From: Acidobacteria bacterium UBA2994 | GTDB lineage: Bacteria > Acidobacteriota > Vicinamibacteria > Vicinamibacterales > UBA8438 | Assembly (NCBI GenBank): GCA_002346545.1 | Contig: DEAA01000032.1 | Span: 123,312-177,373, forward strand | DNA length: 54,062 nt | Reading direction: 5' to 3' | Translations under genes and position numbers: made by a program | The notes under the pieces: model-generated | What the model was told of the DNA's origin: nothing | Seen by the model: the letters and a program-made list of their open reading frames with translations, nothing else | Database searches by the model: none | Shown: positions 872 through 19,564 of the stretch, piece by piece | How the letters are laid out: every line of letters begins with the position of its first letter | Position numbering within the stretch: position 1 is the first letter of the stretch

Positions 872-1603
872 ATGACCAGGTGGGTGGATCCGCAGGCGCG
901 CGAAGTGGAAATCTTGATCGCCCTCGCCTCGTTTGCCGGGCGCGACATTCTGGAACTCGGGTGCGGTGATGGCCGGACTGGACGCCGATTGTCGGAGATG
1001 GCCAGATCGGTACTGGCTGTCGACTCGAACCCCGCGGTGATTGCGAAGGCCGAGGCGGCGGCGCAGGACACCGGTCGCAAGAACTGCCGGTATCTCGTTC
1101 ACGACAGCGGCGACCTCGACCTACCTCCAGAGAGTGTAGACGTCGCGCTCTTTTCCAGGTCCTTGTGATGACACGCTCGTGAGCGCGTCGGTGACGCGCT
1201 GCGCCGGGTGCACGGCTGGCTCCGTCCGGCTGGTACGCTCATCGTGTTCCAGCCGCTGGACGAGCCAATGGCGCTGGCAGTGAGGCGCACGGGCAAAGAT
1301 CGACCGATGGGGGCCGCGCTTCACAGCGCGGAAGCCGGCGCGGACATCCGAGCGGCGCATCGGCAAGTGGTGGAGCTCGTGGGGGCCGGAGCGTTCCGCG
1401 TGATCAAAGAGACGTCCGCGGCGCTCGAGGTCCACTTCCGATCGCGCAACGATTGGACCGAGTTCGTCGAGCGTCCCAATACAGGCGAGATCTCGGTGGA
1501 CTTCGACGACCTGGATCTGGCACTTGGTGCCGTCGAGCGTGGAGAGGCGTTGCTGGTGGGTACCGAGGAGACGTTCTTTGGCGCCTACGAAAAAGAGGAG
1601 TAG
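872..1603 (+). CDS. Class I SAM methyltransferase with two in-frame UGA codons (candidate selenoprotein)
   Basis: One frame runs from ATG 872 to TAG 1601-1603, interrupted only by TGA TGA at 1166-1171. GAGG at 863-866 supports ATG 872 over GTG 866. The first half holds the SAM-binding motif ILELGCGDGRTGRR, an acidic strand end (VLAVDSN) and the strand VDVALFSRSL directly before the two TGA codons. The second half carries on as a normal methyltransferase: HARERVGDALRRVHGWLRPAGTLI, given here in pieces, is the helix plus the LRPxG motif, followed by VFQPLDEP and an intact C-terminal domain. The 143 codons after the TGA pair contain no other stop and keep family features, so simple decay looks unlikely. 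From memory, unverified, relatives carry SLCC or SLHH at this spot, so the TGAs would replace a Cys or His pair. Read through, the product is 243 residues. The alternative is a pseudogene or two short proteins. The substrate is unknown. Confidence 0.6.
1182..1200 (+). promoter_or_regulatory. SECIS-like hairpin downstream of the tandem UGA
   Basis: AGCGCGTC (1182-1189) pairs perfectly with GACGCGCT (1193-1200) around a GGT loop, giving an 8-bp GC-rich stem. The loop begins 21 nt after the first TGA and 18 nt after the second. Bacterial selenocysteine insertion elements are typically a stem-loop just downstream of UGA with a small apical loop having G in its first positions, so this hairpin fits. 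GC-rich coding sequence forms hairpins by chance, so the match is suggestive only. Confidence 0.45.
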
Positions 1604-5614: not shown

Positions 5615-6706
5615 CTAGCCCAGCATTTGCACCAAGGTGAGCAGGATGCCGCCCGCGATCACCGAGCCGAGCTGACCGGCCGTGTTGGCGCCCATCGCGT
5701 GCATCAGGACGTGGTTGGTGAAGTCTTCTTCCTGGGCCACCTTCTGGACGAGTCGGCCGCTCATCGGGAAGGCGCTGATTCCGGCCGCTCCGACGAGCGG
5801 ATTGACCTTGCCTCTGGTGACGGTCGCCAGAACCTTGCCGAAGATGATGCCAGCCACGGTGTCGAAGGCGAAGGCGATTAGGCCCAGCAGCAGGATAAAG
5901 AGCGTCTGCTGCTGAAGGAACGTGTCAGCCTGCATCAGGCTACCGACGGTCAGACCCAAGAAGATTGTAGAGAGGTTCGCCAGTTCGTTCGACGCGGTGT
6001 TGGCTAGCTGGTTCACTACGCCCGATTCTTTTAGGAGGCTGCCGAACATCAGTGTCGCCACGAGTGGCGCCGAGGCTGGTACCAGCATGCCGACCACGAT
6101 TGTGACCACGATCGGGAACGCGATGACGGCACTGCGCGGCACCGGTCGAGGCGCGTACTCCATCCGGATGCGCCGCTCCTTACTGGTCGTGAACATCCGC
6201 ATCAGCGGCGGCTGGATGATCGGTACTAGGCTCATGTACGAGTAGGCGGTTACAGCGATGGCCGGCAGCAGCTCGGGCGCGAGTAACGACGACACGTAGA
6301 TACTGGTGGGGCCGTCGATCGCGCCGATGACGGCAATCGACGCCGCCTCGTTGAGAGGGAAACCGACCACTGTCGCCAAGATCAACGTGGCGAAGATACC
6401 GAGCTGTCCAGCGGCGCCCAGAACGGCGAATAGTGGCTGCGATAGCAGTGGACGGAAGTCCATCATCGCGCCGATGCCGATGAAGATGAAGAGCGGAAAG
6501 AGCTCGGTGTCGATGCCGAAATCGAAGAGTAGCGCGAGCATGCCCTCCGGCTGGTTCATTGGCGAGTTTGGCAGGTTGCCGAGTAGGACACCGAAGCCGA
6601 TCGGTAGTAGCAGCGTCGGCTCGTACTCCTTGCCGATGGCCAACCAGATAAGCAGGCCGCCGACGCCGAACATCAGGAGCGTTTCTGGTCCGATCGCGGG
6701 AATCAT
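5615..6706 (-). CDS. Na+-translocating decarboxylase, membrane beta subunit (OadB/MmdB/GcdB family)
   Basis: This is a 363-residue, very hydrophobic protein with around ten membrane segments. It belongs to the beta subunit family of sodium-pumping decarboxylases: it begins with a short hydrophobic stretch then LPIGFGVLLGNLPN, and carries GAIDGPTSIYVSSLLAPEL, LMFGSLLKESGVV and, near the end, ISAFPMSGRLVQK and MGANTAGQLGSVIAGG. This subunit decarboxylates carboxybiotin and couples it to Na+ export. It is the last gene of the four-gene set at 5615-9554, 52 nt after the biotin carrier gene. The alpha subunit is a methylmalonyl/propionyl-CoA type transferase, so methylmalonyl-CoA is the likelier substrate, with glutaconyl-CoA the main alternative. 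Confidence 0.93.
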   Translation of the reverse strand: MIPAIGPETLLMFGVGGLLIWLAIGKEYEPTLLLPIGFGVLLGNLPNSPMNQPEGMLALLFDFGIDTELFPLFIFIGIGAMMDFRPLLSQPLFAVLGAAGQLGIFATLILATVVGFPLNEAASIAVIGAIDGPTSIYVSSLLAPELLPAIAVTAYSYMSLVPIIQPPLMRMFTTSKERRIRMEYAPRPVPRSAVIAFPIVVTIVVGMLVPASAPLVATLMFGSLLKESGVVNQLANTASNELANLSTIFLGLTVGSLMQADTFLQQQTLFILLLGLIAFAFDTVAGIIFGKVLATVTRGKVNPLVGAAGISAFPMSGRLVQKVAQEEDFTNHVLMHAMGANTAGQLGSVIAGGILLTLVQMLG

Positions 6707-7613: not shown

Positions 7614-9554
7614 TCAGAGAGGAATATTCCCGTGCTTCTTCGGTAGCACCGGGGTCTGCTTGTCCCGCAGGAACTCCAGGGCGGCGGCCACCTTCATCCG
7701 CGTTTCTCTGGGATAGATGACATCGTCTATGTGACCAGATGACGCCGCGACGAACGGTGAGTTAAACCGTTCGGTGAACTCATTCTCGAGTCGTTTCCGT
7801 TCGCTGTCCCGGGTGGCCGGATCAACCTTGGCCAGTTGGCGAGCGTACAGGATACTCACCGCGCCCTTGGGGCCCATCACGGCGATCTCGGCCGACGGCC
7901 AGGCCAGGCAGACGTCGGTCCTGATCATCTTGCTGCTCATCACGATGTAGGCGCCGCCGTAGGCCTTACGAAGAACCACCGAAATCTTGGGTACGGTGGC
8001 CTCGGAGTAGGCATAGACGATCTTAGCCCCGTGCCGGATGATGCCCTGGTGCTCCTGTCCGGCGCCAGGCAGGAAGCCGGGGCAGTCGACCAGCGTTACC
8101 AGAGGGATGTTGAACGCGTCGGCAAACCGAATGAACCGAGCGATCTTGTCCGACGAGTTGATGTCCAGCACCCCGGCCAGATGCGACGGTTGATTGCCGA
8201 TGCAGGCGATGACACGTCCCTGTAGCCGCGCGAAGCCAACCACGGCGCTGGGGGCGAAGTCGCCGTGAATTTCGAGGAACGAGTCACGGTCAGTGAATCC
8301 CCGGATGGCGTCCCGCATGTCGTAGGCCATTTCGGTCGAGGCTGGAATCAAGCGGTCGAGGGCCCCAACGTCCGGGTCGAGCCGCGCGTCGGGCTCTAGG
8401 TTCGGCGGATCGTCTGCGTTGTTCGACGGAAGATACCCCAGCAGCTGCCGAGTAAAGGCGAAGGCGCCGTTCTCGTCTTCGGCCACGTAATGGGCGACGC
8501 CGGAGGTGCCGGCATGGACCTGAGCGCCTCCAAGGGTCTCGGCATCGACCTCTTCGCCGGTGACGGTCTTGATGACGTCCGGGCCAGTGATGAACATGTA
8601 GCTGCTGCCGCGTGTCATCACGACGAAGTCGGTCAGCCCTGGCGAATAGACGGCACCCCCGGCGCATGGCCCGAGCATGAGGCTGATCTGGGGCACCACG
8701 CCGCTTGCCTGGGTGTTACGCCAGAACAGGTCGCCGAATCCGGCTAGGCTCCAGACTCCCTCCTGGATCCGAGCGCCGACCGAGTCCAGCAGGGCGACGA
8801 TCGGGAGGCCAGCGCTCGTCGCCGATTCGAGTAGTCTCGACAGCTTCTGCGCCTGAACCTCGGAGAACGAGCCGCCCATCACCGTAAAGTCCTGGGCGAA
8901 GACGGCCACTCGCCGGCCGTGAATCAACCCGAAGCCGGTCACGATGCCGTCTCCAGCGTAACGCTGCTTCTCGAGTCCGAAATCGCTGTGTCGGTGTTCG
9001 ATGTAGGGCGCGATCTCCTCGAAGGAGCCGTTGTCCAGCATCCTCGTGATCCGTTCGCGAGCCGTCAGCTTTCCACGGGCATGCTGGGCGTCGATACGCT
9101 TTTGCCCGCCCCCCAGGCGTACCTCTGCTCGTCGTAGCGCCACGGGGTCGTCTGGTGACGGCGGCGTCTCGGGTGCTTCGGGCTCTGTGGGTGGCGCGGG
9201 CGCTAGCTCGGGGGCCGCGCTCGATGTGGCTGGGACCTCGGTCGTCGTCGGTGGTTCGGCCGGTGTCGACTTCGACCGCAGGCTCACGTTCGGGTCGCCG
9301 GCCGAAGCGAGCGCTTGCTGTTCGCCCGCCTCGAGCGCCGGGCTCGCCGTCGGCGCCGTGGCGGCCTGCCTAGCCTTTCGGCGTCGTACCCAGGCCCGCA
9401 ATGAGGCCCACACCGCGGCGCCTGCTACGGTAGTGCCCACCGGGATGCCCAGAAGCTTGAGGGCGCTACCATCGGATGGATCGCCCGCGGAGCGGGTCGC
9501 CGGGTGATCGGCGTCTGAGGCGGACGGCGTCGGGTCGACGGGTGAATCAGCCAT
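7614..9554 (-). CDS. mmdA: Acyl-CoA carboxyltransferase alpha subunit (MmdA type) with membrane-anchor-like N-terminus
   Basis: From ATG 9554 this is a 646-residue protein; TTG 9566 would add four residues and neither start has a clear ribosome binding site. The last ~510 residues are a standard carboxyltransferase of the propionyl/methylmalonyl-CoA family: RIDAQHARGKLTARERI, GIVTGFGLIHGRRVAVFAQD, GGSFSEVQAQK, the oxyanion-hole region GGAVYSPGLTDF, VDCPGFLPGAGQEHQGIIR, and the typical VMGPKGAVSILY near the end. It moves CO2 from a CoA ester to biotin. The first ~135 residues are unusual: a polar start, one hydrophobic segment (LLGIPVGTTVAGAAVWASL), an Arg-rich flank, then a long Pro/Ala/Glu/Thr linker. 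Normal MmdA proteins are about 510-520 residues and lack this. It is the first gene of the decarboxylase operon. Confidence 0.93.
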   Translation of the reverse strand: MADSPVDPTPSASDADHPATRSAGDPSDGSALKLLGIPVGTTVAGAAVWASLRAWVRRRKARQAATAPTASPALEAGEQQALASAGDPNVSLRSKSTPAEPPTTTEVPATSSAAPELAPAPPTEPEAPETPPSPDDPVALRRAEVRLGGGQKRIDAQHARGKLTARERITRMLDNGSFEEIAPYIEHRHSDFGLEKQRYAGDGIVTGFGLIHGRRVAVFAQDFTVMGGSFSEVQAQKLSRLLESATSAGLPIVALLDSVGARIQEGVWSLAGFGDLFWRNTQASGVVPQISLMLGPCAGGAVYSPGLTDFVVMTRGSSYMFITGPDVIKTVTGEEVDAETLGGAQVHAGTSGVAHYVAEDENGAFAFTRQLLGYLPSNNADDPPNLEPDARLDPDVGALDRLIPASTEMAYDMRDAIRGFTDRDSFLEIHGDFAPSAVVGFARLQGRVIACIGNQPSHLAGVLDINSSDKIARFIRFADAFNIPLVTLVDCPGFLPGAGQEHQGIIRHGAKIVYAYSEATVPKISVVLRKAYGGAYIVMSSKMIRTDVCLAWPSAEIAVMGPKGAVSILYARQLAKVDPATRDSERKRLENEFTERFNSPFVAASSGHIDDVIYPRETRMKVAAALEFLRDKQTPVLPKKHGNIPL

Positions 9555-9643
9555 GTAACCGGGCAATTATAGCGGTTGCGGCTTTCCGCCGGTGGGTTGA
9601 TCCGCTCGGTTCGGACGGAGAACCAGTCTGGGACTGCGTCCCC

Positions 9644-18715: not shown

Positions 18716-19564
18716 TCAGGCCCGGCGCCTGAAGTAGGCGAGATCGTAGCCGATCCACCCCTTGGAGAGACAGGTGTGCAGCGCATTGCCGCCGACGAGG
18801 TGTCCAGCCCGCGTACCGTCGAGCGGCAGCCAGCCGAACAACGCGATAAACAGCGCGATCAGACGGTCGCGAGGGCGTCCCAGTCGGAGATGGGGTGTCA
18901 GTTCGTGGGTCCGCTCGTGGCCGAAGCCGCCGGCGTCGGCGAGCCGAACGAGCTCATTGCCGTCGACCAGGCTGTTCAGGTGCCAGCCGCGCCTGAATCG
19001 CTCCACGGTACCGACCGCTTGTGGCGACGGGGTCGGTCGGCGGAAATCATCGCAGATGAGGAGCCGCCCGCCTGGTCGGATCAGGCGGGCGCAGGTGGCG
19101 AAGAAGGCGCTCGGGTCGGGGGTATGAACGAACGATTCGATGGCGTAGGCCAGATCGACGGGTGGCAGAGAGTCCGGCGGACGCAAGAAATCGGCTTCGA
19201 TGCACTGGAGCCGATCGCCGAGGCCGCAGGCGTCGATGCGGCGGCGCGCATGGTCGACCTGTACCGGACTAACGGTGAGCCCGATGCCACGGATCGGGTG
19301 GCGCTCGGCGAGGTAGCAGAGGCTGGCGCCCACGCCACAGCCGAGGTCGAGCACCGTCGGTGGTTCGCAGGTCGTAGAAAGCTCTGCTGTTGCCGCACCG
19401 ATACGTTCCTCTATGTAGCGGAACGCATCTGCCTCCCGCTCGATTCCCGGGGCCCAGACCGCCCGGTGTAGCGCGCCCACCGCACCCCCCTGGCCGTGGG
19501 CAACAAAGTCATCGGTATGACGGTCGTAGTAGCGGCTCACGTCCGCCGCATCGAACTCAGACAT
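18716..19564 (-). CDS. Class I SAM-dependent methyltransferase
   Basis: This is 282 residues from ATG 19564, which lies 8 nt inside the end of the FkbM gene. The SAM site is TVLDLGCGVGASLCYLAER, followed by IGLTVSPVQVDHARRRI and the strand VDLAYAIESFVHTPD, then LIRPGGRLLICDD. This is the arrangement of small-molecule C-, O- or N-methyltransferases related to UbiE and tocopherol methyltransferases. The last 80 residues (LFIALFGWLPLDGTRAG onward, WIGYDLAYFRRR) are moderately hydrophobic and may cap the substrate pocket. It reads as an operon with FkbM upstream and creatininase downstream. The substrate is unknown. Confidence 0.88.
   Translation of the reverse strand: MSEFDAADVSRYYDRHTDDFVAHGQGGAVGALHRAVWAPGIEREADAFRYIEERIGAATAELSTTCEPPTVLDLGCGVGASLCYLAERHPIRGIGLTVSPVQVDHARRRIDACGLGDRLQCIEADFLRPPDSLPPVDLAYAIESFVHTPDPSAFFATCARLIRPGGRLLICDDFRRPTPSPQAVGTVERFRRGWHLNSLVDGNELVRLADAGGFGHERTHELTPHLRLGRPRDRLIALFIALFGWLPLDGTRAGHLVGGNALHTCLSKGWIGYDLAYFRRRA

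Follow-up and report, generated by a model that had tools for sequence, protein, structure and literature searches.

Can two adjacent in-frame UGA codons belong to a working bacterial gene, or do they mark its decay? The question is raised by positions 872–1603 (forward strand) of a 54,062-nucleotide stretch of DNA from Acidobacteria bacterium UBA2994 (contig DEAA01000032.1), the whole of which is called the window here. A single frame opens with ATG at 872, runs for 243 codons and ends at its true stop codon, TAG at 1601–1603. The only in-frame stops within it are TGA at 1166–1168 and TGA at 1169–1171 (codons 99 and 100), which directly follow the peptide ...VDVALFSRSL. A reading made from the letters alone (the sequence-only reading) had described a frame intact but for TGA TGA at 1166–1171, and re-reading of the window sequence confirmed this. 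From comparative sequence analysis we conclude, with a probability of about 0.94, that 872–1603 is the gene of a methyltransferase selenoprotein carrying a selenocysteine–selenocysteine (Sec-Sec) pair.

A methyltransferase frame and its nearest known families

Translated through the two UGAs, the frame gives a protein in which Pfam Methyltransf_25 covers residues 26–121 and spans the break, at 59.3 bits. AlphaFold2, run with the pair written as Cys, predicted one confident methyltransferase fold across both halves (pLDDT 96.2), with the pair following strand 4. On the frame, Pfam and the model, the N-terminal half (872–1165) comprises the predicted SAM-binding Rossmann part up to strand 4, with GCGDG at codons 30–34; on AlphaFold2 and short database homologues, the C-terminal half (1172–1600) would hold the remainder of the methyltransferase fold and further C-terminal strands. 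The domain, the Rossmann fold and the glycine-rich motif expected of a class I SAM-dependent methyltransferase were all found.

Among the best 25 of 36 NCBIfam matches, none reached its cut-off for the window protein. The best was CpaM (NF043040), a corrinoid protein-associated methyltransferase, which all 43 members of our family alignment A4 also match at E ≤ 1e-5; the window protein, however, scored 42.4 bits against a cut-off of 180, over residues 19–126 only, and thus falls outside that family. MduS (NF045649) likewise combines a methyltransferase domain with two Sec residues, but the window protein reached 24.7 bits against a cut-off of 380, over profile positions 43–145 of 338 only, which places it outside MduS, whose motif is given as CxxU in the table of the available part of a review (PMC13188914). 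The methyltransferase/UXPK-star double selenoprotein (NF047649) is alike in being a methyltransferase with two Sec residues and unlike in score (20.7 bits against 460) and in motif, UxxG for UXPK-star in that part of the review (PMC13188914). ArsM and its Sec forms (NF008823, NF041536 and NF041537) are SAM methyltransferases that use Cys or Sec, and PDB arsenic methyltransferase chains match the family profile at about 4e-8 over the SAM-binding part. ArsM proteins have several conserved arsenic-binding cysteines, which lie apart in the sequence. The window protein differs from them in scoring 15.8 bits against 263 (NF008823), 18.1 against 575 (NF041536) and 23.8 against 510 (NF041537), the cut-offs of both ArsM selenoproteins remaining out of reach, and the motif of the ArsM selenoproteins is UxxG according to the same part of the review (PMC13188914).

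The review's table of 119 prokaryotic selenoprotein families, in the part available, prints no UU motif, some of its rows giving no motif at all (PMC13188914). No tandem-UGA bacterial methyltransferase appeared among the literature matches listed, and an earlier description by Haft and colleagues is possible. On the NCBIfam scores and the review's motif table, we place the protein in a new double-selenoprotein family, marked by its neighbouring Sec residues.

Conservation of the UGA pair and of the hairpin behind it

Searching 100 genomes, the window's own included, with the read-through protein gave a match in 54: the own genome, six genomes with two internal TGA codons (34–44% identity) and 47 where the only matches were general methyltransferases free of stops. 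The one genome of the same genus that was covered (77% complete) gave no match. The seven TGA TGA proteins were aligned (A1) and used as a profile query, which at E 1e-18 or better matched 14 of the 162 genomes of the order and, over the class, the identical 14 carriers among 193 genomes. Over a sample of the phylum it matched 7 of 396 genomes, namely four new carriers, two known ones and one genome (G255) whose copy has His-His at the pair. The carriers thus counted, window included, number 18 and span 14 genera and eight families; in 18 of 18, TGATGA aligns at the motif after strand 4. Distribution of the gene is patchy among the genomes searched, and most carriers are draft assemblies.

The codons behind the UGAs do not drift freely. 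In protein-guided alignments, dN/dS downstream of the UGAs was 0.20–0.49 in 10 of 10 pairs compared; upstream it was 0.19–0.37 in eight pairs, 0.76 in one almost unchanged pair and not computable in one. These values come with several dS above 1 and with compared pairs that share genomes; both halves of the gene look to be under constraint. The sequence-only reading had named homologues in close relatives with stop-free codons other than Cys at the pair, or frameshifts elsewhere in sister copies, as signs of decay or error. The sister copies keep TGA TGA, whereas one carrier copy of the 18 (L111, G116:C54) is frameshifted late in its C-terminal half, where two frames match, with TGATGA and the hairpin retained; this is either an assembly error or decay.

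Behind the pair, at 1182–1200, lies a SECIS-like hairpin. In the window, AGCGCGTC (1182–1189) pairs with GACGCGCT (1193–1200) in an 8-bp stem closed by the loop GGT at 1190–1192 (GGU in the RNA), as the earlier claim of a stem starting 10 nt past the second TGA with a GGT loop had it. Seven of these base pairs are common to all 18 genomes. Among the carriers the GGU-type loop begins 17–18 nt past the second UGA and 20–21 nt past the first (18 and 21 nt in the window). All seven consensus pairs form at the exact offset in 18 of 18 TGA TGA genomes, against a background of 7 among 3312 codon-phased positions elsewhere in the carrier genes; six non-Sec homologues, a small control picked as ungapped, formed two to five pairs at the same offset.

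All 17 distinct sequences form the seven pairs, and three of these pairs are altered on both sides with pairing kept. The covariation score was 0.318, against a shuffled mean of 0.150, and was matched by none of 500 shuffles, while slid structures scored at most 0.083. The percentage paired was also reached by none of 500 shuffles and far exceeded every slid structure; for two-sided changes 18 of 500 shuffles reached the count, and in pair types the hairpin did not rise above shuffles (355 of 500 as high). RNAalifold recovered the identical helix unaided. Third codon positions track their stem partners: Ala is written GCT, GCC or GCG, the third base of an Asp or His codon is C or T, and one pair is G-U. 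When the peptide was held fixed and synonymous codons were redrawn by pooled usage, all seven pairs arose with p = 0.02–0.17 per gene, probabilities that are not freely multipliable because the genes are related, although UU forms four separate groups in the tree described below. Trained on 16 other sequences with the window held out, a covariance model ranked the window hairpin first (47.8 bits, E 1.3e-10; next match 9.1 bits); in 626 kb from 84 loci lacking the gene, it found nothing better than E 0.022.

Folding energy was no better than that of dinucleotide shuffles (66 nt, z 0.72, 148 of 200 as good; 32 nt, 57 of 200 as good) and is therefore not counted as evidence; it is conservation that lifts the hairpin above chance. 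The window hairpin has an energy of −15.1 kcal/mol (32 nt), energies having been computed in 5 of the 18 carriers, and Rfam gave no match over the window or over 1100–1400. The available part of the review sets bacterial SECIS limits at a loop of 3–9 nt, a stem of 4–16 bp, a G within loop positions 1–2, a distance of 16–37 nt from the UGA and an MFE of at most −7.5 (PMC13188914). The window hairpin lies within these limits, with both UGAs inside the 16–37 nt range, in agreement with the distance claimed by the sequence-only reading. The SECIS of E. coli fdhF is alike in that its GGU-type loop (GGUC) starts 18 nt past the UGA, and unlike in serving one UGA rather than two and in having a longer, interrupted stem.

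Selenocysteine machinery and the residues found at the pair

The genome that holds the window (4.12 Mb, 96% complete) encodes a SelB that lies in a single frame (346 bits, cut-off 242), SelA (443 bits), SelD (292 bits) and a tRNA-Sec with a UCA anticodon (69.9 bits). With selA, selB, selC and selD all present, the absence of selB or selC that had been named as counting against a selenoprotein was not seen. This UCA tRNA resembles Sec and Ser tRNAs in its long variable arm and its G discriminator. The SelA match falls in two pieces (G000:C66:17608–18675 and 19040–19279), about 365 bases apart and in different frames, either through an insertion or through a frameshift.

Across the carriers, a tRNA-Sec was found in 17 of 18 (no match in G038) and SelB above cut-off in 15 of 18, made up of 11 of the 14 in the order and all four found in the phylum sample. 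Fourteen carriers have both, and every carrier has at least one. On re-search, G119 and G132 (80–85% complete) gave only sub-cut-off SelB matches. In another carrier genome the SelB match is divided into two neighbouring pieces (G086:C90:12378–14331). Within the order, SelB exceeds the cut-off in 113 of 162 genomes (11 of 14 carriers, 102 of 148 others); it is so widespread that its presence, though needed, neither discriminates nor amounts to a correlation.

A search from the window alone returned just two distant methyltransferases, and homologues were gathered with profiles of A1 and of a further alignment, A2 (best 120 of 240 and best 120 of 720 matches). Cys-Cys occupies the pair in 104 of the 145 retrieved homologues of 200–300 aa, a count that shows the Cys form to be common rather than giving its frequency, since these best matches were tilted towards Cys (U was written as C in the queries, and A2 was built mainly from Cys-Cys proteins). 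Named holders of Cys-Cys include a Thaumarchaeota MAG (P0145) and a Heimdallarchaeota MAG (P0179). The other homologues of this length are mostly of His-His types, many of them shift-aligned, with a few RC, CA and RQ; the last three combinations occur in P0003, P0016, P0156 and P0188, so that one or both thiols can be missing. The expectation that relatives would carry CC or HH here was borne out: the TGA pair at 1166–1171, the proposed Sec99-Sec100, aligns with Cys-Cys in full-length homologues and with His-His in more distant ones. An in-frame UGA at the Cys position of homologues, in several species, is the pattern by which bacterial selenoproteins are recognised, and it is present here. 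None of the compared loci was recognisable as DNA of a Cys-Cys relative, and a search of the class around G277 contributed just one homologue, G435, of a non-Cys type.

Retrieval also brought in 53 proteins shorter than 200 aa. Twenty-one of them are C-terminal halves that start at profile position 106 or 114, all 11 of those listed beginning with M, and 18 break off immediately ahead of the pair, at profile position 98; this suggests that gene callers split such genes in two. Seven N-terminal fragments stop one position later, at 99, with the ending SLC, as do two further proteins. The SWSLC-ending fragments are P0060, P0063, P0066, P0070, P0072, P0073 and P0084, and the further two are P0083 and P0097. 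To judge the stop codon from the protein ends, these resemble what Cys-Sec genes would yield if truncated at the second codon of the pair, and on their account we gave up the idea that both residues always switch together. In a tree of 54 proteins (16 UU, 26 CC, 4 other and 8 HH), UU requires four changes in all, and two or more are unavoidable given the branches with strong support; UU and CC groups are intermixed. On this tree, Sec and Cys have probably been exchanged more than once at the pair.

Weighing the readings and the role of the pair

The sequence-only reading had put forward a Sec-Sec selenoprotein, and TGA TGA in 18 genomes, the conserved hairpin, the Cys-Cys homologues and the Sec machinery together support it. 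Three other readings of the locus were weighed and rejected. That two point mutations, or a sequencing error, gave TGA TGA in an ordinary pseudogene whose downstream half is decaying would account for the interrupted frame and for the frameshifted G116 copy; we find it barely credible, given an identically placed TGA TGA in 18 genomes from 14 genera, dN/dS of 0.20–0.49 past it in 10 of 10 pairs, a hairpin conserved at a fixed distance and one intact predicted fold, and the remark that the locus does not have the look of a pseudogene stands on the same evidence. It is extremely improbable that the tandem stops instead end an N-terminal protein and that the C-terminal half is made from an internal start such as the GTG at 1208. 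Such an arrangement could explain the 21 of 53 short proteins that are C-terminal halves from position 106 or 114, the 11 listed beginning with M, but gene callers yield proteins of this kind after in-frame stops; the cut would divide a single predicted Rossmann fold behind strand 4, the Cys-Cys homologues each form one chain, and TGA TGA is there in 18 of 18 carriers. That a selC*-type tRNA inserts cysteine at the UGAs, giving a Cys-Cys rather than a Sec-Sec product, or that some other residue is put in there, is very improbable too. It has in its favour the many Cys-Cys homologues and the selC* Cys tRNAs described in some bacteria in the available part of PMC7609411; the UCA tRNA here, however, has a long variable arm, a G discriminator and 69.9 bits as tRNA-Sec, SelA, SelB and SelD are present, and a SECIS hairpin would be useless under such decoding.

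Under the Sec-Sec reading, SelB and Sec-tRNA would use the single hairpin twice, on successive codons. The pair would sit in the loop that follows strand 4 of a class I SAM-dependent methyltransferase, a position that, given the fold, points to the predicted active site, and may be present as a vicinal diselenol that becomes a diselenide when oxidised. Our best guess at its role, tentatively held, is that it captures a soft, thiophilic substrate beside the SAM methyl group; candidates would be a trivalent metalloid or metal, or a thiol or selenol compound. It is possible, if on balance unlikely, that the pair serves instead as a redox switch or regulatory vicinal diselenide and not as a ligand. 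The available part of the review regards most uncharacterised selenoproteins as probably redox in function (PMC13188914). Against such a role stand the SAM methyltransferase fold and the A4 alignment, in which the invariant and nearly invariant columns hold no Cys besides C99 and C100, so that no other resolving Cys of this kind is seen there; in the seven-row A1, though, C31 of GCGDG never varies.

The surroundings of the gene gave no substrate clue common beyond one bacterial family among the loci compared. Over 17 loci together with the window's first 16 kb, shared neighbours were confined to one bacterial family or genus, and the remaining shared ORFs are the gene itself or ORFs antisense to it, the simple ORF picker used favouring antisense frames in GC-rich DNA. 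Ten chosen neighbours, when scanned, proved to be a cyclase, a carboxylesterase, VanY, coproporphyrinogen oxidase, a TPR protein, a histidine kinase and four without domains. A 224-aa ORF on the opposite strand (1121–1795, −) overlaps the gene and belongs to an ORF cluster common to five loci; it is probably a by-product of GC-rich codon bias. Elsewhere in the window, 5615–6706 and 7614–9566 (−) are the closely spaced genes of an oxaloacetate decarboxylase beta subunit and of a carboxyl transferase, which may form a decarboxylase cluster of the sodium-pump type.

We give even odds to the full proposal, in which one hairpin would direct two Sec insertions, Sec-Sec would form a substrate-capturing centre, and the family would have shifted among Sec-Sec, Cys-Sec and Cys-Cys more than once. 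A Sec-Sec pair is unusual protein chemistry, and it raises the questions of how SelB serves two adjacent UGAs from one hairpin and what advantage a vicinal diselenol has over a dithiol in a methyltransferase. The Sec-Sec, Cys-Cys and probable Cys-Sec homologues are natural sets for comparison. If the proposal is true, evolution would already have carried out, within one active site, the experiment of exchanging Sec and Cys at two positions.
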